Source: Thermothielavioides terrestris NRRL 8126
Lineage: Eukaryota; Ascomycota; Sordariomycetes; Sordariales; Chaetomiaceae
Assembly: GCF_000226115.1 (NCBI RefSeq)
Contig: NC_016461.1
Span: 4,216,001-4,280,000, forward strand
DNA: 64,000 nt
Direction of reading: 5' to 3'
A program made the translations under genes and the position numbers. Below are positions 53,994 through 64,000 of the stretch, in pieces (within the stretch, counting starts at the first letter, position 1; the number at the start of each line of letters is the position of its first letter). The notes under the pieces are model-generated. The model saw nothing but the letters and a program-made list of their open reading frames with translations. It was not told the DNA's origin and searched no databases.

Positions 53994-54193
53994 GCTACGC
54001 AGGCTCAGGAAGATGAAGCTATCACGATACAAGCAATGTACACAACTGGGATCAATCGTAGTGTTTAGGATAATGTATTGTAGGAGAGTTCTCCTAATTA
54101 GGAGCCCAGTCTTAGGCGGCAGTTGGGCAGCAAGCCGATAGATCCTAATCTCGGTAGGCCGGCCCGGTGCCCCGGGCCAGGCTAGTTCTAACA
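53994..54193 (-). repeat. 3' LTR of the copia element
   Basis: 200 bp, TG...CA on the minus strand (TGTTAGAAC ... GGTTCCAACA). On the minus strand it is directly preceded by a purine tract, AGGGGGGTG. It is less AT-biased than the interior. The five bases outside (GAACG at 53989-53993) would be the target duplication if the other end could be checked. Confidence 0.8.
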
Positions 54194-57100
54194 CACCCCC
54201 CTAGGTCGAGCCTCCGGCTCCGGCCTACCAAATCCAGTAATCTATAAAGCTATTCCCAACACTACGTCCTTCCTAATCTAGCAATTCTATAGTGTTGAGG
54301 TCCTTTTGCTATCGCCCTAATCTACCGAGCCTTGTACACCTACCCTTCTCAATCCTATATATTATACTATAAACTAGACCTTCTATTTGGCTAAAGCCTT
54401 CTTCTAGCCCTATATTTCTTCCTTCTACGCTACCTAGTAGGCGTAGATCTTGATAAAGGCCTAGATATCTATTAGATTAAGCATTTCTACGAACTTCCTA
54501 TAGGGCTCTAGTTCTAGCGCCTTCGTTAGGCCGTTAGCTAACATCTAGTTTAAGGGTATATAATCTATACTAACCCTCTTGTTCTAAGCTTCTTAGCGTA
54601 GCTAATAGTTATAAATGTCGATATATTTTAGCTTTGTCTATAGTATAAGTATCTTAGCGTCGATTAGCTAGATCGTCTATTTGTTATTGTATTAGATTAA
54701 TAGGATCTTATTATCTAGATAGATCTCTAGGGCCTTTAATAGGCGCTAAAAGAATATATCTTCTTTTACTACCTATATAAGTGCCAATAACTTGGCTTCT
54801 ATAATCGATATAGTTACTATATCCTATTTACTAGCTTACTAAGCGATTAGCTCTCTAAATAGGATAATAATATAACTTTATAAGCTTTTACGATTGATAC
54901 TATTGTTAGTAAAGCTAGTATCACTAGCTATAATTAGGATATCTCCTCCTCCTAGCTAGAGGGCCTAGAACCTCGTTCGATAAAGGTATTATAGTACTCG
55001 ATTAGCTATATAGTAGTGTTTAGGTCCTAGGTTCTAATTGAACTATATAAGCTTAGAGGCTATAAAGGCAATGTCTAGGCATATATTGACGATAGTATAT
55101 AGGATTGAGCCGATCTTCCTTTGATAGAGCCTAATAGAGCTATAGCTAGCAATATCGTTATATAGGAGTAATTCGCCTTTGGCTATTAGAGTCTCTAGCT
55201 CTCCTTCTTCCTAGGCTAACTTTACGATCTTTTCGATATATACCATCTAGCTAAGCTAGATTAAACACCTCTTATAGTTGCGATGAATCTCTATACCTAG
55301 GAACTATAGGAGGTTATCTCCTCCTATAAGTTCGTACTTTTCTCGTAGTTGGCTAATCACTTCGTTAGCTCGGTACTAATCCTTTTTATAGTAGACGAAG
55401 ACGATATTATCTATATAGAAGAAGATAATAATGCCTTTGTTTATTATAATATAAGGCTCTTATAGTATAGCTTAGAACCTTAGGTTCTTTAGAGTAGCTA
55501 TTAGCTTTCGTTACTAAAGGAGAAGAGACTTTTATAGGCTATAGAGTACCTTCTTTAGCTTTAGGATAGTTCTTAATTTACAATAGCTATATAGCATCTC
55601 TATATAAATGTCCTTATCGATCTTTATATTGACGAAGACGTTGACTATATCGAATTACTTTAGTTTTAAGTCGAACTTCGCTATAGTAGTAAACACTGTT
55701 CTAAAGGATTATATAGCGAGTATAGCTATATAGTTCTCCTTAGCGAACCTTTTCTTTTGTTGATCGCTATATACTATAAGCCTTACTTTATATTTAATAA
55801 GGTATCCGCTTTTATTGAACTTATAGACGTATACCTATATATAATCTAGGATCTATTTGCCCTAGACCTCTTTGTTATAGTAGCGAATCTCTTCCTAAGA
55901 GCCTATTACTTCGTAGCTTCGAAGATGATCGCGTTCCACTTTTAGGAATAGCTAGCCTAGTAGATAATCTTTAAGTTTAAAATGCTATCGAAGTATAGGC
56001 GAGAGTATCAACTAGTAGATAGATCTAAGCTTACCTTCTTACTATAGGCAATCGACTTCTTCTTAGGAGATCCTCTTAGCGTCGTTAACTTTCTTCTTAA
56101 TAGTACCAACTACCTTTTTAGCCTTCTTTTTACTCTTTTAGGCGAGCTCTTCTCTCTCTTCCTCTATATAGAGGACCCTCCTTAAGTACCTACGTTCAGC
56201 AGCTCTAGGGCCCAACGTTCCTACGTTGAAGGCGGCCTCCTATAGCTAGAACACTCCTTTAGAGGCTCTAGGCGAACGTAAGCCTAAGAAGGTAGCTACG
56301 ATTAGAGCGTTTAGCGAAGTAGACGGAGGAGTTGGATATTAGAACTCTAGGAAAATGCCTATAATATCGCCTTTTACTACAATAGTATCTAACACTTCTT
56401 TGATAGTAGCTAGGCTCTCTTCTAGTTCTTTAAAGGTTGTTAAAAGTGTATTAAACACCTCTATTATATCCTCTTCCTTAGCTATAGGCGTAAGATCACT
56501 GTTATTTGGCTAATCGGCATTATTAGCGTCTCTAGCATTAAGCTAGCGTTTTAGCTCTTCGAGGTCTATTTAAGGAATGTCTTGTACTATAAGTTTTAGA
56601 TCACTTAGGTATATCTACTTCTTATTAAAGATTATATTGTATATATATACTACTTGGTTGGTAGCTAGGTTCTAGATATAGTAGATATTCAAAGAATTAT
56701 ATTCTACAAGGTAGCTAATCCAAACTCTCAGTTAGAACCGTTTAAAGCGCCTTTCTTTCTTTTTAGCTATATCTATTATAGTATATACCTTACAACTATA
56801 GACCTTTAAATACCCTTGGTATAGCTTATACTCTAAGGCTCTTAGGCTATCTCTTTTAGCAAAGAAGGTATAAAAGTGATCTAGCGACGTTATCTACTCT
56901 ATTGTTAAGAATAGTGTCCTATTGTAGAGATATATCGTAGCCCTTATAACTTTTAGCTACAGTTGCCCTAGCAACTATATACCAATAGCCATCGTTCTAG
57001 CCTTCTCCTTAATTATACCCCCTAAGCGTTTAACGCCTCTGTTCTATATAGGCGTATTAGGCATTGAAGGCTCTATTCAAATGCCTTATCTCTCTACCTA

Positions 57101-59026
57101 GGTAGTAATAGCGCTCGCCTATATAAATTCGTTGTTATACTCTAGGACCTTAATACGTAGCTGATATTGCTTTTTAAACAGTATAGCGAGGTGTTTAATA
57201 GCTACTAGGATGCTTAGAGCCTCGTAGTTGTATAGATAGTAGTCCTATATTATACCTAAATAGCGATCTATCGCCAATAGTAGATGTTTAAAGCGCTATT
57301 AGCCTTCCTAGAAAGGGTATAGATCTAAAGCGATCTTGTCGCCTAGGCTATAGTTCAACGGCCTAGGAATACGATTGGGCCTACGTTTTAACTTGCTAAG
57401 GCTATAGCCATTATACTCGAACGTTAGTACGCCTTTAATACGCCTTCCTTATAAGCAATTGACAAAGTGTTCAAGGGCCCTCGGGCCTATATAGCTAAGG
57501 CGTAGGTGCTAAGTTATAGTATCTACTATACTCTCTACGTAGTAAGCTTAGTGATCGAGCCTCTTTGTTTAAGCGGCAAAGGCTATAGGCGTATAGTCCT
57601 TAGGTATATATTCGAGGATATATTGTTAGAGCTTCTTCGTAGTATATCCAAAGAGCGTATAATCTTAGCGCCTAAGTAGGTAGTTCGGTATACTCTTTAG
57701 CCTATTGTCCTACTAGATTCCTTGTCGGTTAAGCTACTCTAATAATACAATGTTATATACGAAGGTCGGGCAGTAAGCTACATTATATAGTATAAGGACT
57801 ATAATACCCTTGTCGTTCTATAGTTTAATATCTATCTTACTATATCCTTTAATCTAAATAGGGTACTTGCCTACCTAGATATAGTCATTAAGTATAGCTA
57901 ATTTAGAAGGCCTTTTAAACCTATTTAGATAGTTAGCAATGTAAATAGTTGACCTTGAATCTAGGATCACTAAGTTGATTAGGGGATATGTCTAGCCTAT
58001 CTAGAATGTAGCTAGGATTATAGCGAAGCTTGCTATATATTTGCCTATAGCTCTCTATCGCTATATTTTCGCGATATACTAGTAGCTAAATATTACTATA
58101 ATGTTAGTACCTATATCGGGGGCATTGCCTATATTAGGGGCGATACCTACTTTAGGGGCAGTACCTTCTTCCTAAGTAGTACTCTCTTTAGAAGTAATGC
58201 CCTCTTCGAGGGCGTTAGTATCTACTATATCTACTTTGGGGACCTTGAGCTCCTTCGTTGAGAGCGTAGCTATAGCTCTTTTAGAGTGGTTAGCTAGTTA
58301 ATACGATAGCGGATCTTCGTCTATATCGCTCTTTGTATCGTCAACGAAGCTACTTCTAGACCTCTTTATCTAGAGCTTATTGGCCTCTGCTTATAGAGTT
58401 GAATTAGCTTTTAAATTAGCCTCTATACGAGCCTTAACGTATTCTCTAGGTTCCTACCTAGGCGGTATACTTTTAGGATTTAAATAATAGTATCGTTCAG
58501 TTAGATAGAAGTAATTGTATATATAGCACTTCCTTAATATGCTCGAGGACCTTATAGAGGTACTAGGGGCTATAGGTATACTTAGCTTACGTTTAGAGCG
58601 GGATTAGCCGATTCTAGCTCCCTCTTTACGACTAGCTTAGCGTCTAGGGCAATTCTCTTAATCTTCTAGTTGCTTAGGGTCCTTATTTTCTTTCTCTCTA
58701 GGGCTATAGATCGAGAAGGAACCTTTCTCTACGTAGTTAGGCGCCTTTTCGAGGAATAGATATGTGCCTTTATAGACTTCTATAGCTATAACTCGAAAGG
58801 TTAGCTTCTTAAGGATCTCTATCTTATTTATAGTATAGAGGGAAATAAAGCTTAGGAATAGCTTCTCTAGTATAGCTATTAGTTCGTTGAACTATAGGCT
58901 AGGATCCTTCGCCTTGCTTATTTTCTAGAGGGAGGCCTTATCTATTAGGTTCTCCTACTTGATGAGCTACCTCTCGAAATTAGCCTCCTTAATATATACG
59001 TTCTTAGGATATTTAAATGTATTGAG
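53994..59026 (-). mobile_element. Ty1/copia LTR retroelement, RIP-mutated, 5' part displaced
   Basis: Very AT-rich, full of TAG/TAA, and readable only piecewise on the minus strand. Visible parts in element order: gag-like HLNIPRTYIKEANFER at 59000; integrase with IEPSMPNTP, NRGVKRLGGIIKEKARTMAI around 57,000; reverse transcriptase with FYIDNIVFVYYKKD near 55,400 (YVDD box as YIDN) and ELIGGDN...FLGIEIHR; RNase H end near 54,500; then a purine tract and the 3' LTR. Gag-integrase-RT-RNase H order is that of copia. The pervasive C-to-T style decay indicates RIP. The 5' LTR is not seen because a gypsy element interrupts gag at 59027. Confidence 0.85.
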
Positions 59027-59620
59027 TGTCAGGAGCGGGGGCTCCCAGAAGGAAGGGGGTATACGTTGAAGTGACGGAGTACGAGCAAGGCACAAGCAGA
59101 GCACGCGCTACAGGGTAGCTACAGGTAGGGGGGTTGCGGGTGGTTGCATTGAACGCTGGCCTCTCCCACTGCCTGTGGGTTCCATCCTCCTTATTTCTCC
59201 CATCCTGGCCCTCGATCTTCCTCCGCATCGGCCAGCCTCCATTCCTGAGCTCGCAGATCCTTTCCTGGGCCATCCTGTGGCGCCTGCATAGCTCCCTGAG
59301 TGCGCCCAATCCGCTCTGCTGCCGACCCAATGTCTCAGTTCCCCGCACTTGCTCAGCCTGATGCCCCGCACTTCGCTCAGCTCTGTGCCCCTCCGATCGC
59401 TCCTCCGGGTGGCTCGCGTGATCTGGGCTACTGACGTGCGCCCTGGTGGCGCACGCAGATGACCTGCGTGGTGCCCTGTGGTTGGCCAGGCTGCGCCGGG
59501 TGCCGGATGCAGGGCGAGGTGGTCGGGCCGAGGGTTGTGCCAGGTGCCGAGGCGCGTTCCGAGGGCTGTGCCGGGTGCCGAGGCGGGTCCCGCGGGTTAG
59601 GGTGGCTCCGGGGCATGACA
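59027..59620 (-). repeat. 3' LTR of the gypsy element
   Basis: 594 bp, beginning TGTCAGGAGCGGGGGCTCCC and ending GGCTCCGGGGCATGACA on the plus strand, so TGTCA...TGACA terminal inverted bases. On the minus strand it follows a polypurine tract. Confidence 0.8.
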
Positions 59621-59638
59621 GGGCCCTCCTCCTTCAAG
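59621..59638 (-). other. Polypurine tract of the gypsy element
   Basis: Minus strand CTTGAAGGAGGAGGGCCC directly before the LTR start TGTCATGCCC, the expected priming site for plus-strand DNA synthesis. Confidence 0.7.
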
Positions 59639-60480
59639 GTCCCTGACCCCAGGGACTGCCGTGCCGTAGCCTGAGGGGCGCAGTGGTCGCGCCTCGGGGT
59701 CGTAGCCTTGCATGCCCGGCGGCGGACTGCGTAACGGTAGTTCGGGTGGCGCATGCGCGGCTTACGATCTTGCCGCACGCGTGGTTCCTGTCAGTCGCGC
59801 TTCGGCCCGCGGCCTAGCCTGCCGGCGGCAGATCGCGTAGCGGTAGTTCGGGTGGCGCATGCGCGGCTTGCGATCTTCCTGCATGCGCGGCCTCCATCGA
59901 TCCAACTGCTCCTCCGCATGCGCGATCCAGGGCGGCCCAGATGGAAGTGGCCTGTTCAGATCTGGGGCCGCCTATTCAGGGCCTATTCAGGCCCGAAACA
60001 GGAAGGCAACAATAGAGCTGAATAGAACTGAATAGAAGGTGTGCATGTTTGGGGTGACGGCAGGAAAGAAAAAGGGGTAAGGAGCGCACACTATGCGCGT
60101 CCCAAGCGCCTTCGCTGCGCACATGGAAAAGGGGAATTGAAACTTCTGCCAGAACATTGCGATGCAAGAAACACAGGATTTTGAGCCCTCCAAGCTTGGA
60201 CCACCTTACCGAGTATATCTTCTGGGCTCGCGGCTCCCAGCCTTCCTTTCCTCCTTTTCTTCCTTCGCGCCATCTTCGTAAGTGCCCAGCCCACCTAAGT
60301 GCCCAGCCCACCACGACGACAATGCGATACTGGCCCGCGATTGCGATCGCGCGCGTGCCCTCTGCTTCCTCCTAACGCTCCCTCTGATCGCGCGCGCATG
60401 GCTGACTTCTTCGCTCTGCAGATGATTCGTTTTTTTTTTGGCGCTTCCGCCCTCGCCTCTCCTCGGTAGGTCGCCCCGCG
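59639..60480. other. Non-coding interior of the gypsy element, upstream of the antisense gene
   Basis: GC-rich stretch between the polypurine tract and the start of the opposite-strand gene. It contains a 43-bp direct repeat and, nearer the gene, a run of T at 60431-60440 and CT-rich sequence. It presumably acts as promoter for the plus-strand gene. No frame with family resemblance. Confidence 0.5.
59729..59877 (+). repeat. Pair of 43-bp direct repeats
   Basis: GCGTA(A/G)CGGTAGTTCGGG through GCATGCGCGGCTT(A/G)CGATCTT occurs at 59729-59771 and 59835-59877 with two mismatches, 106 bp apart. A weaker GCATGCGCGG echo follows near 59881. Confidence 0.8.
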
Positions 60481-62063
60481 ATGGTTCGGTCGATTGGCAG
60501 GATGGCTCTCGATCGACAGGATGGCTCTGGCGATTCCAGCGTGCGAGGGCCGCGTGGCTGGCGAACTCGCTGCGCGGCCGGCGGGAAGAATGCAATGGTG
60601 CGCTGACAATGTGGCAGATTCAAATAACTCATTCATTTCCGGCCGCGCCTCGTGAGTGACCTTCAACGCTGAGATGTCGATGGATGGAGCAGGGCGGACG
60701 CTGCTGACACGCTGGGTAGAAGCAATCATGTCAAAGTTGTTCTCGAGCCTGGGCTTCCGGCCCATCAACGCGGCGCCTGAAGAGCGCCCTGCTGGCGAGG
60801 CGGAGTCGCCCGCCGACGACGCGCCCGCGGCTCCCGCGGAGCGTGCGTCTGGCGCGGCGGCTGCGCCCGCCAACGACGACGAGAAGGAGGAGAAGAAGGA
60901 GGAGGACGAGGACGAAGAGATGGAGGAATCCGAGCCTCCGACTCCGCGCAAGGGCGGCTTCGGCCGCAAGAGAAGGGCGGTACGTAGAGAGGGCGCAGAT
61001 GGGGAGCAACGCGATCGCTGACAGTGCGGCAGTCCAGTGACCTTGACTCGACGCCCAAGAAGAGAGTCCCTGCGGGCGCTGCCCGCATCATTCCGTAAGT
61101 GCAGAGAGCGCAACCGAAGCGTGTCGGAGGCGCGGGCTGTGCGTGTGCTGACAATGGTAGCTGCCGCCGTTGTGTGGCCAAGTTTTTCGACAGTGGTGGC
61201 GCCCCCGTCTGCCACCATCAAGCCGGTGCGTGTCTGCGTGTAGGTTGCGTGTTCGTTGCGTCTGACATGCTCGTAGGTTCCGGTTCGCGCTGCGTCGAGT
61301 GTGCGCAAAATAACCATACTTGCCCGGCTGTGAGTTGCCCTCCTCCTTCAAAGGCGCTGACCTCAGCGCCTTGAAGCCGAAACCTGCGTTTTCGTTGCGT
61401 GTGCGTTGCGCTGTTGCTGATCCCTCTGAAAAAATGAAGATTCATCCTACTGCCCTCGCCGCAGTTTGCGGCTTTATCGAAGCCCTCGACAAGAGGGACC
61501 ACCCCGCCGCCGATGAAAAGGTAAGTTTTCAAGTGTCTCCCCTGCGTGCGCGATGCGTGTACTGAGCGCGTTCTAGCCGGCTGCGCTTGTCCAGGGCGTC
61601 GTCGACGCGCTTGCGGTGGCCCGCGAGGCCATCAGCGGTGCCCCGGTCGCCCCCACCGCCCGCTCCGAGAACTTCTCGGAGCAGTGGGGGGAGGTGCGGA
61701 AGGCGGAGGGCGTGCTGAAGAGGCGCCTCCGGCGCTTCGTCGGCGCGCCCGCGCCGCTCCCACCTCCTCCCCCTCCTCCTAGCACTACGCTGGAGGAGGT
61801 GGTGGAGAGGCTGGCCAAGCTGGAGGAGCAGCAGAAGCGTGTGGAGGGGGTGGTGGTAAGTCTGCGAGTCCGTTGCGTCCACGAAGCGTGTGTGTGGCTA
61901 ACAATCAAAGAATGAAATTTTGGTGGTGGTGAAGAGCTGGGGTCCGCCGCCGGAGGAGGGTGAGGAGGGGGAGGGGGGTAGCGAGGAGGGCGCTGATGAC
62001 GCGCAGGTGGCCGAGTTCGTGACGGAGTCGATCCAGGGCTTGGAGAAGGACTTGGCGATGTAG
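60481..62063 (+). CDS. Nine-exon gene on the antisense strand of the gypsy element: six-Cys cluster, NLS and coiled coil; uncharacterised
   Basis: Exons: 60481-60540, 60618-60651, 60720-60979, 61033-61094, 61161-61225, 61277-61329, 61440-61520, 61577-61855, 61911-62063; 1047 nt, 348 aa. All eight introns (51-110 nt) are GT-AG, five with a CTGAC-type branch site shortly before the acceptor, and all phases agree. Start ATG at 60481 (CCGCGATGG). Residues about 75-100 are acidic/Lys-rich; PKKRV at 126-130 resembles a nuclear signal; cysteines at 140, 143, 156, 166, 169 and 176 form C-x2-C-x12-C-x9-C-x2-C-x6-C, reminiscent of fungal zinc clusters; a poly-Pro run and a coiled coil (about 275-310) follow. 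It ends 114 bp from the pol stop, tail to tail. I know similar anonymous cysteine-rich proteins from fungal genomes but no function. Confidence 0.78.
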
Positions 62064-62177
62064 GGGGTGGCTGTTGGGTGGGTGGGTGGTTCTTGCGTTG
62101 TTTTTTTCTTTTTTCCTTTTCTTTTCTTTTTTCCTCAATTGAAGCGCCGCTTGGCGCCCTCGTTGCGTTCCCGCCGC

Positions 62178-64000
62178 TCATCGCCTGCGCCTGTGCTCAT
62201 CTTGAATGCGTGCTTCGTAAGCGCGCAGTAAAGGCCCGTCATCAATATGCCTGCGCGGCTCCCAGGTGTTCTCCTCTGGCGGGTAGTTCTTCCACTTGAT
62301 GAGGAAATACCTGTCGAGAGGTGGCCCTGCATGATCAAGAATGGCTTCGACCTCCCAATGCTGCTCCTGCGCAACGACCTGCACGCGATCGCGGTACGCG
62401 AGCGCTTCCTGCAGGTTGCCGTTGAACGGCTCGAGCATCGCAACAGAGAAAACAGGGTGGAACTTGAACGCAGGCGGGAGATCCAAGCGATACGCCATCT
62501 TCTTGCTGCCCACATCAGCGATGATTTTGAACGGCCCGAGATACTTATCTGCGAGTTTGCTGCTCGGGCGCCGCTGGCGAATGTGCCTTGAATCAACCCA
62601 AACCCACTGGCCAACTCTGAAGGTCATGGGCGTGCGCTTGCGGTTGTACCACTTCGCATAACCTTCGTTGGCTTGCACCAGGGCCTCGCGGATTCTTTCC
62701 CGATCCTTGGCGAGCTTCCTAGCACGCTCCTCCGCAGCGGGAACGTTGCTCGAGCTGTTCGCAAGCGGGTCTGCCGGATCGCGCGGGTGGTAGCCGTAAA
62801 GGAGGTATGCCGGGGTCGCCTTCGTAGCCGAATGCACTGAGGTGTTGTAAGTGTGTTCGGCCAGAGCCAACTTCTGCGCCCAGTCATGCTGCTCCCACGC
62901 GCAGTAAGTGCGCAGGTAATGCTCCAACGCCTGATTCTGCCTCTCTGTCTGGCCGTCAGTCTGAGGATGGTACGCAGTGCTCAGCTTTTGCGTGACATCC
63001 AAGAGGTCGCAGAGTGCGCGCCAAAACCCGCTTGTAAACAAGCTCCCGCGGTCGGAAACAATGGTCTGCGGCAGGCCGAAGGGTCGGTAGACGTAATCGA
63101 AGAAGAGGTGGGCAAAGGCGCCAGCCTGGAGCTGCTTGTGCGTTGCGATGTAGAGGGCGTACTTGGTAAACTTGTCGACGATGACGAGGACGGCGTCGCA
63201 GGGTTTGTGCGTGCGGGGGTCGATGGAGGTGGGCAGGCCAGTGACGAAGTCGACCGTGATATCCTGCCACGGGCGCTCAGGAACCGGCAGCGCTGCGAGC
63301 TCGCCGTAAGGGCGGTGGGTTCTCGCTTTCGTGCGGCCGCATGTGACGCATTCCACCACATGTTGATCGATCTCCCTGCGCATGTCCGGCCAGTAGTAGT
63401 AGCGCATCAGGCGCTCGCGAGTCTTCCTGATGCCGCCATGGCCACCTGTTGCAGCGTTGTGGTAGCGCGCCAAAAGCGTGTGCCGCAGGGCCGCAGGCAC
63501 ATAGATCCTGCCGCTGTAACGCAGGATGCCATCGTCTCCGAGCTTCCACTGCCTGCGCATGCGAGCCGTCTTCCAAGCGCCCTCAGTCACCCAGGGATCG
63601 ACTTCCTGTGCCTGGATTAGTTGCTGCTCAAAAGGCCAGCCTTCGTCCTCCACCGGCTTCCTAGCAGCGGCAGCGACGTACGGGCGGTGATCAGGCGCAC
63701 GCACGCCGCCAGCCAGACTGCTGCGGGCCGTCTGGTCCGAGGGGGGTCGCCGCCCAGGCCCCGGGTGGCCAGGTTCCCTTGCGTGTGTTTCCTGGGCCTC
63801 CGGGGAGCCACGCTCCAGCGGCGGTTTACCAGGTCCATCTGGGCCGCGGGTGGCACTTCCGTCCAAGCCGTGGTTGACCAGTGGAAAAGCGTCATCCAGG
63901 CGAGGCCTCTGCGCCGCCGCCTCTCCCTCGTCCCCAGCCGTGGGCTCACGGTGACGCTTGCCGCTACCCACGCGCTGCGAGACCTCCCGATGGCCCTCCT
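62178..64000 (-). CDS. Ty3/gypsy polyprotein, C-terminal part: integrase and chromodomain (partial)
   Basis: The frame is open from the window edge to the stop at 62178 (about 607 residues seen). The integrase zinc-binding part has YHNAATGGHGG and ECVTCGRTK (HHCC). The catalytic core has DITVDFVTGLP, VSDRGSLFTSGFW and STAYHPQTDGQTERQNQALE, giving the D,D-35-E triad. After a GPY/F-like FRVGQWVWVDSRHIRQRRPS segment, a chromodomain closes the protein (WEVEAILDHAG, YFLIKWKNYPPEENTWEPR), which targets integration to marked chromatin. Reverse transcriptase and RNase H should lie beyond the window. No stop or frameshift is seen, so the copy may be recent. Confidence 0.92.
   Translation of the reverse strand, partial: EGHREVSQRVGSGKRHREPTAGDEGEAAAQRPRLDDAFPLVNHGLDGSATRGPDGPGKPPLERGSPEAQETHAREPGHPGPGRRPPSDQTARSSLAGGVRAPDHRPYVAAAARKPVEDEGWPFEQQLIQAQEVDPWVTEGAWKTARMRRQWKLGDDGILRYSGRIYVPAALRHTLLARYHNAATGGHGGIRKTRERLMRYYYWPDMRREIDQHVVECVTCGRTKARTHRPYGELAALPVPERPWQDITVDFVTGLPTSIDPRTHKPCDAVLVIVDKFTKYALYIATHKQLQAGAFAHLFFDYVYRPFGLPQTIVSDRGSLFTSGFWRALCDLLDVTQKLSTAYHPQTDGQTERQNQALEHYLRTYCAWEQHDWAQKLALAEHTYNTSVHSATKATPAYLLYGYHPRDPADPLANSSSNVPAAEERARKLAKDRERIREALVQANEGYAKWYNRKRTPMTFRVGQWVWVDSRHIRQRRPSSKLADKYLGPFKIIADVGSKKMAYRLDLPPAFKFHPVFSVAMLEPFNGNLQEALAYRDRVQVVAQEQHWEVEAILDHAGPPLDRYFLIKWKNYPPEENTWEPRRHIDDGPLLRAYEARIQDEHRRRR

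Follow-up and report, generated by a model that had tools for sequence, protein, structure and literature searches.

What kind of gene, if any, is carried with its introns inside a retroelement that passes through an RNA cycle? The question is raised by a locus near the right end of the window, i.e. the whole stretch of 64,000 nucleotides of the Thermothielavioides terrestris NRRL 8126 genome analysed here (C5:4216001-4280000). As the initial annotation had stated, a multi-exon frame on the plus strand sits between the stop of a minus-strand pol gene (62178) and the 3' LTR of the same element (59027-59620). Antisense accessory genes of LTR elements raise the question of what they do, and a multi-intron example makes this easier to test. 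We therefore characterized the host element, the gene model, its occurrence across the copies of the family and the predicted product, and weighed these against alternative explanations of the frame.

The host element is a Ty3/gypsy chromovirus

The part of the element lying within the window spans 59027-64000 on the minus strand. Self-comparison delimits the whole as 9,433 bp (C5:4275027-4284459, minus strand), extending beyond the window end and bounded by two direct repeats of 594 bp each, which are 100% identical and 8.8 kb apart. The 3' LTR (59027-59620, minus strand), identical to the second LTR beyond the window, has the TG...CA ends of Ty3/gypsy LTRs; the element is flanked by a 5-bp target-site duplication, TTGAG, and target duplications of this length are seen at three of five identical copies. 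Pfam detects RVT_1, RT_RNaseH, Integrase_H2C2, rve and Chromo, with the integrase following the reverse transcriptase (RT) and the chromodomain at the C-terminus, an architecture that identifies a chromovirus. The gag part has a gag domain and zinc knuckles, and the pol part RT and RNase H; the 3' portion of pol in the window (62178-63971, minus strand) encodes the H2C2, integrase core, SH3-like and chromodomain segments, the full pol frame continuing outside it. Hence, on the side of the element, the claim of a gypsy chromovirus with an intron-bearing antisense gene is supported by RT, RNase H, integrase core and chromodomain alike.

The gag and pol genes form a single frame with one TAG between them (L009:7253-7255, outside the window), and the same arrangement recurs in all five undamaged copies; this suggests stop-codon readthrough. 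A likely polypurine tract adjoins the 3' LTR at 59621-59635 (minus strand), assigned by its position. In the interval that separates the antisense gene from the 3' LTR, at a site expected for a promoter, a 69-nt sequence is repeated at 87% identity with a spacing of 106 nt (59716-59890).

Structure of the antisense gene

We model the gene at 60728-62063 (plus strand) with seven coding exons and six GT-AG introns, running from an ATG at 60728 to a TAG at 62061-62063 and encoding 314 aa. Coding exon 1 (60728-60979) specifies residues 1-84 and is followed by an intron with the boundaries GTACGT...CAG (60980-61032), exon 2 (61033-61094), a GTAAGT...TAG intron (61095-61160), exon 3 (61161-61225), which contributes cysteines 106, 109 and 122, a GTGCGT...TAG intron (61226-61276), exon 4 (61277-61329), with cysteines 132, 135 and 142, a 110-nt GTGAGT...AAG intron (61330-61439), exon 5 (61440-61520), a GTAAGT...TAG intron (61521-61576), exon 6 (61577-61855; 93 residues), a GTAAGT...AAG intron with the motif GCTAAC (61856-61910) and exon 7 with the stop codon (61911-62063), all on the plus strand. 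Upstream there is a likely first intron (60652-60719, plus strand; GTGAGT...GCTGAC...TAG), which lies either in the leader or after an alternative start: an ATG at 60609, read through this intron, gives a protein of 331 aa. Both starts are better supported than the one originally proposed. The gene and pol are convergent, with stop codons 114 nt apart.

The initial annotation had joined nine exons with eight introns. Seven introns stand, each with a GTRNGT donor and an AG acceptor. The other part of the chain, an exon at 60481-60597 followed by a 20-nt intron (60598-60617), is doubtful and was rejected: neither is needed, and the intron is too short, as we know of no fungal intron of such length. 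The nine-exon chain is nevertheless formally open if 61439 is used as the intron-5 acceptor, a site at 61464 having been discarded as it breaks the frame; the length of that chain is 367 codons and not the 348 originally given. Five introns (60652-60719, 60980-61032, 61095-61160, 61226-61276 and 61856-61910) contain a CTGAC or CTAAC motif which, taken as a 6-mer, starts 14-17 nt from the intron end. The intron 61330-61439 has GCTGAT at 24 nt from its end, and no canonical branch motif was found in the intron 61521-61576.

Five of the six coding introns lead to an early stop when retained singly; retaining 61226-61276 leaves the frame open. The antisense frame is expressible only after splicing of the plus strand, and spliced reads would be unambiguous proof of its expression. 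The 110-nt intron 61330-61439 also holds a second copy of the polypurine-tract sequence: positions 59623-59657 match 61337-61371 with 15 nt exact and 83% identity over 35 nt, and a 15-nt repeat of this kind appears in 10 of 200 mononucleotide shuffles. A hairpin next to the intronic copy is strong (z -3.2), while that on the LTR side is no stronger than in shuffles (z 0.36).

Evidence for splicing and coding

A scan for strong fungal-type introns recovered five on the plus strand of 60600-62100 and none on its reverse strand. Among 5,000 dinucleotide shuffles, 4,624 had no such intron, 355 had one and 21 had two. Elsewhere in the window, the scan found one intron in the remaining 62.5 kb of the plus strand and six on the whole minus strand (64 kb), and it found none on the gag-pol strand of the whole chromovirus. 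Four of the five introns in the cluster are those of the model, the fifth (61273-61376) being a chance pairing of sites. A spliced-ORF search in which the branch motif was required yielded 792 nt with four introns on the real plus strand; this length was reached in two of 150 shuffles and 945 nt in none, and a single shuffle used three introns, none using more. As the open length is matched by some shuffles and the intron cluster is not, the cluster is the strong evidence and the open length the weaker. The contention that such a structure is unlikely by chance therefore holds for the intron cluster, which lies far beyond the shuffles; the canonical branch sites that had also been invoked are confined to part of the introns.

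GC content by codon position is 0.71/0.51/0.79 in the antisense exons and 0.65/0.45/0.72 in pol, and the introns have 0.57 overall. The complement of the exons shows the mirrored pattern, so that GC alone cannot fix the strand; a frame of 340 codons runs on the opposite strand of the same stretch.

The gene is a fixed part of the chromovirus family

Searches of the genome (36,912,256 bases in 6 contigs) returned at least 32 matches to the DNA of the gene region and at least 73 to pol at the protein level. At least 33 of the latter match the 3' half of pol at 54-100% identity, the other 40 or more pol matches being 26-31% identical. The antisense gene lies within 200 bp, on the opposite strand, in 30 of the 33 pol 3'-half matches listed; the other three are pieces without the pol 3' end. 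It is thus a fixed part of this chromovirus family and shares with the aORF-3R class its position, its antisense orientation and its presence in most family copies. Two of the 32 gene matches listed do not adjoin pol, and look like the far halves of copies split by insertion.

Five copies, one each on C1, C2 and C3 and two on C5, show no difference from one another along the 9,433 bp, and the antisense frame is intact in all of them. A further 18 older copies (L016-L033) were aligned to the chromovirus, 12 end to end and 6 in part. The gene and all its intron positions are present in each of these 18, and no intron is missing from any of the 23 copies examined base by base. This is as expected if the introns survive by virtue of antisense orientation, as initially suggested.

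The differences of the older copies are almost all C>T and G>A changes in CpA and CpG contexts: the copy L016 has, over its length, 1,219 C>T/G>A changes, 6 T>C/A>G changes and 2 transversions. Such a pattern is the signature of repeat-induced point mutation (RIP). Because of this damage, stop codons and disrupted splice sites, taken as they stand in the older copies, are uninformative. For instance, an AT at the intron-5 donor in all 18 older copies was considered as a derived donor and rejected, since 30% of CpA sites show a change in every one of the 18 and RIP explains it.

A selection test with all substitutions was likewise set aside, as nearly all of them are C>T/G>A, and the other changes alone were used. 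In the exons of the 18 older copies 11 of 27 such substitutions are synonymous against 5.8 expected (p=0.018; shifted frames p=0.88 and 0.54), and among variants common to at least two copies 5 of 9 are synonymous where 2.2 would be expected (p=0.049, as compared with 0.76 and 0.95 in the shifted frames); these p-values are uncorrected, variants shared by related copies are counted and the copies are not independent. By the same test pol has 53 of 82 synonymous against 19.3 expected (p=3e-15), and gag gives no significant signal (10 of 24 against 8.1, p=0.27). The copies L025 and L031 share five third-position changes, one first-position change and a 3-nt in-frame exon deletion. This deletion is the only indel event in the 945 exon bases of the older copies within 59621-62200, whereas introns and flanks together have 17, mostly in T or T/C runs; gag and pol have no indels. 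The pattern of changes suggests modest, frame-specific purifying selection on the antisense frame, and gives modest evidence that the gene codes for a protein. The comparison of copies for selection that had been proposed for this gene thus gives a frame-specific excess of synonymous changes, with p at about 0.02 before correction.

Features and relatives of the predicted protein

The predicted protein has a strongly acidic segment (residues 50-70), a basic segment (74-97) with two KKR/KRR clusters, and a cluster of six cysteines (106, 109, 122, 132, 135 and 142) followed by a seventh at 154. A proline run then precedes a heptad-like stretch (243-272). In Pfam, neither the full-length protein nor its cysteine or helical segment scores above cut-off against any family, Fungal Zn2Cys6 and other named zinc domains included, and a PDB search returned no matching chain. 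The structure predicted for coding exon 6 alone has three helices at low confidence (mean pLDDT 59.5, pTM 0.29). The basic and heptad-like segments are far apart and match no bZIP profile, and hence do not form a bZIP of the HBZ kind. HBZ of HTLV-1 is not known to have a six-cysteine cluster, and its splicing and promoter arrangement differ from those of the gene described here. The likeness between the two would be at most one of mode of action: HBZ is also a spliced, antisense gene of the 3' region of a retroelement, with acidic, basic and heptad-type segments.

Homologues in other LTR elements, for which a profile search had been suggested, did not emerge from word-based searches: in the protein database the product matches THITE_117983 of T. 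terrestris NRRL 8126 alone, and this derives from the RIP-damaged copy L016 of the same family. THITE_117983 can be traced exactly on L016, by a computed path distinct from the public annotation. The path has two introns identical to those of the model (60980-61032 and 61095-61160) and shares further sites, such as the acceptor of 61226-61276 and the donor of 61521-61576; several junctions differ. No Botrytis protein is among the matches to the product, and the cysteine segment has no match, in these word-based searches, beyond the reach of which a distant family would lie.

Elsewhere in the genome, a stand-alone, single-copy partial relative is found at C1:2829404-2829559. It is 45% identical over residues 117-167 and, at the DNA level, 82% over 66 nt matching coding exon 4 and 68% over 117 columns; order and orientation agree with those in the antisense gene, and a similar pyrimidine-rich tract lies downstream. 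Its reading is interrupted by stops, and no significant LTR or pol match occurs near it in 4 kb. Possible identities are a decayed host gene, the relic of an element and a sequence with introns of its own. The presence of such a relative in the same genome makes it possible that the antisense gene originated from a host locus, captured in antisense together with the introns; the copying could equally have run from an element. A second region, at C1:6116259-6116480 (within C1:6115801-6117000), resembles residues 178-259 at 36% over 86 columns (E 5.8e-4) and has a long open frame; part of the similarity is proline-rich and there is no DNA match to the chromovirus. Distant relationship to a host sequence and shared composition are both possible explanations. 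A third genome match, at C4:921553, has E 0.07.

Relationship to known antisense genes of retroelements

An antisense gene in a fungal chromovirus is not in itself the novelty that the initial annotation had taken it to be: Boty of Botrytis cinerea already has one, brtn, in the available text of the relevant papers (PMC7264820; PMC8365987; PMC4227169), and the gag-pol of a Boty-like element is described there as carrying a CHROMO domain (PMC4227169). Our comparison with brtn is by description and covers its antisense placement in a fungal chromovirus. Among plant gypsy elements, gene23 of Grande and the corresponding ORFs of RIRE2, Retand (ORF4) and PvRetro13 share the position, the orientation and the presence in most copies; the accessible part of that account does not mention introns in them (PMC7264820). 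The likeness of these plant ORFs to the present gene is one of arrangement. The maize gene23 is described as encoding a nuclear protein and as having its own promoter (PMC7264820), and we count this as a precedent for an accessory gene. The ORF3s of LTR elements in bdelloid rotifers are also extra ORFs from spliced messages; they are enzyme-like, and the sections available describe no antisense multi-intron gene (PMC5408684). For Penelope elements the text available argues likewise that introns are retained when the template is antisense (PMC3846280). In the literature searched, which covered little of the subscription literature, there is no intron-rich antisense gene in a fungal LTR element. 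An antisense accessory ORF is thus a known kind of component of LTR elements, fungal chromoviruses included, and its intron-rich structure is, as far as this literature shows and with brtn compared by description, the new part.

Nature and possible role of the gene

We consider it fairly probable that the frame is a true accessory gene of the chromovirus, spliced and coding for a protein that acts on the element, and thus a member of the aORF-3R class, the antisense additional ORFs located between pol and 3' LTR. Its expression and promoter, and the nuclear location, metal binding and role of its product, we infer as follows. Transcription would probably start from a promoter of its own within the chromovirus, between the 3' LTR and about 60600. 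After integration the host would probably splice the plus-strand transcript, giving a protein of 314-331 aa. The predicted product would combine an acidic and a basic, NLS-like stretch with a cluster of six cysteines that probably binds metal and with a heptad-like helix; by analogy with gene23 of Grande, it would probably act in the nucleus on the transcription or integration of the element, a role of the kind already proposed for comparable genes. The introns most likely persist because reverse transcription uses RNA of the opposite strand, in which they appear as CT...AC complements and are not splice sites. If expression holds true, the gene would be a clean case of introns surviving reverse transcription by orientation, and the family a small fungal system for studying the role of such a gene. 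A more specific proposal, which we regard as rather unlikely, is that the product is a host-derived cysteine-rich nuclear factor made only from integrated DNA by splicing, which would control the element or its escape from silencing, the antisense orientation being the means of carrying introns through the RNA cycle.

It is possible, though not probable, that the gene is a passenger: a host gene captured with its introns in antisense orientation before the family expanded, and carried since without benefit to the element. The stand-alone relative on C1, with its similar downstream tract, and the weakness of the selection signal are in keeping with such a history, although that locus has stops and could equally be a relic from an element. 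Against a mere passenger, every listed match that retains the pol end also has the gene, the five identical copies preserve an open frame, and an older lineage, that of L025 and L031, differs mainly at third codon positions and by one in-frame deletion.

Control by antisense RNA would make the coding capacity secondary: a transcript running into the 3' end of pol would pair with the genomic RNA and tune silencing or reverse transcription. The convergent arrangement of the two genes suits this idea, and antisense RNAs are described as restraining Ty1 (PMC7175516) and are discussed for plant elements (PMC7264820) in the accessible portions of these papers. However, such an RNA needs neither six or seven introns, nor a coding frame, nor a frame-specific synonymous excess, and we find this explanation doubtful. 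That the whole frame is an artefact, a GC-rich noncoding stretch in which splice signals and an open frame coincide by chance, is very improbable: GC-rich DNA does yield long open frames, as the one on the other strand illustrates, and two of the 150 shuffles equal the length of the best branch-constrained model, but five strong introns are set against at most two in any of the 5,000 shuffles, and the substitution pattern is specific to the frame. The preferred reading thus remains that of a spliced accessory gene acting on the element.

Recent history of the family

The five undamaged copies coexist with many RIP-damaged ones in the same genome, and no other undamaged copy is among those found. 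The presence of undamaged beside damaged copies suggests that the element has moved since the last round of RIP. In most of the 18 older copies RIP-type changes are almost as frequent at CpG as at CpA; RIP in Neurospora, by comparison, has a strong preference for CpA, unlike the pattern here. Directly to the left of the chromovirus, the stretch 54000-59000 of the window has 34-39% GC as against 55-65% in its neighbours, and looks like another RIP-damaged repeat. Two of the identical copies, at C5:3245499-3248830 (L011 and L012) and C2:5100088-5103419 (L014), are without matching target duplications, and each bears the other's half (GTTAC and TACTT). These swapped halves point either to a reciprocal ectopic exchange between the chromosomes or to a misassembly at the perfect 9.4-kb repeat.
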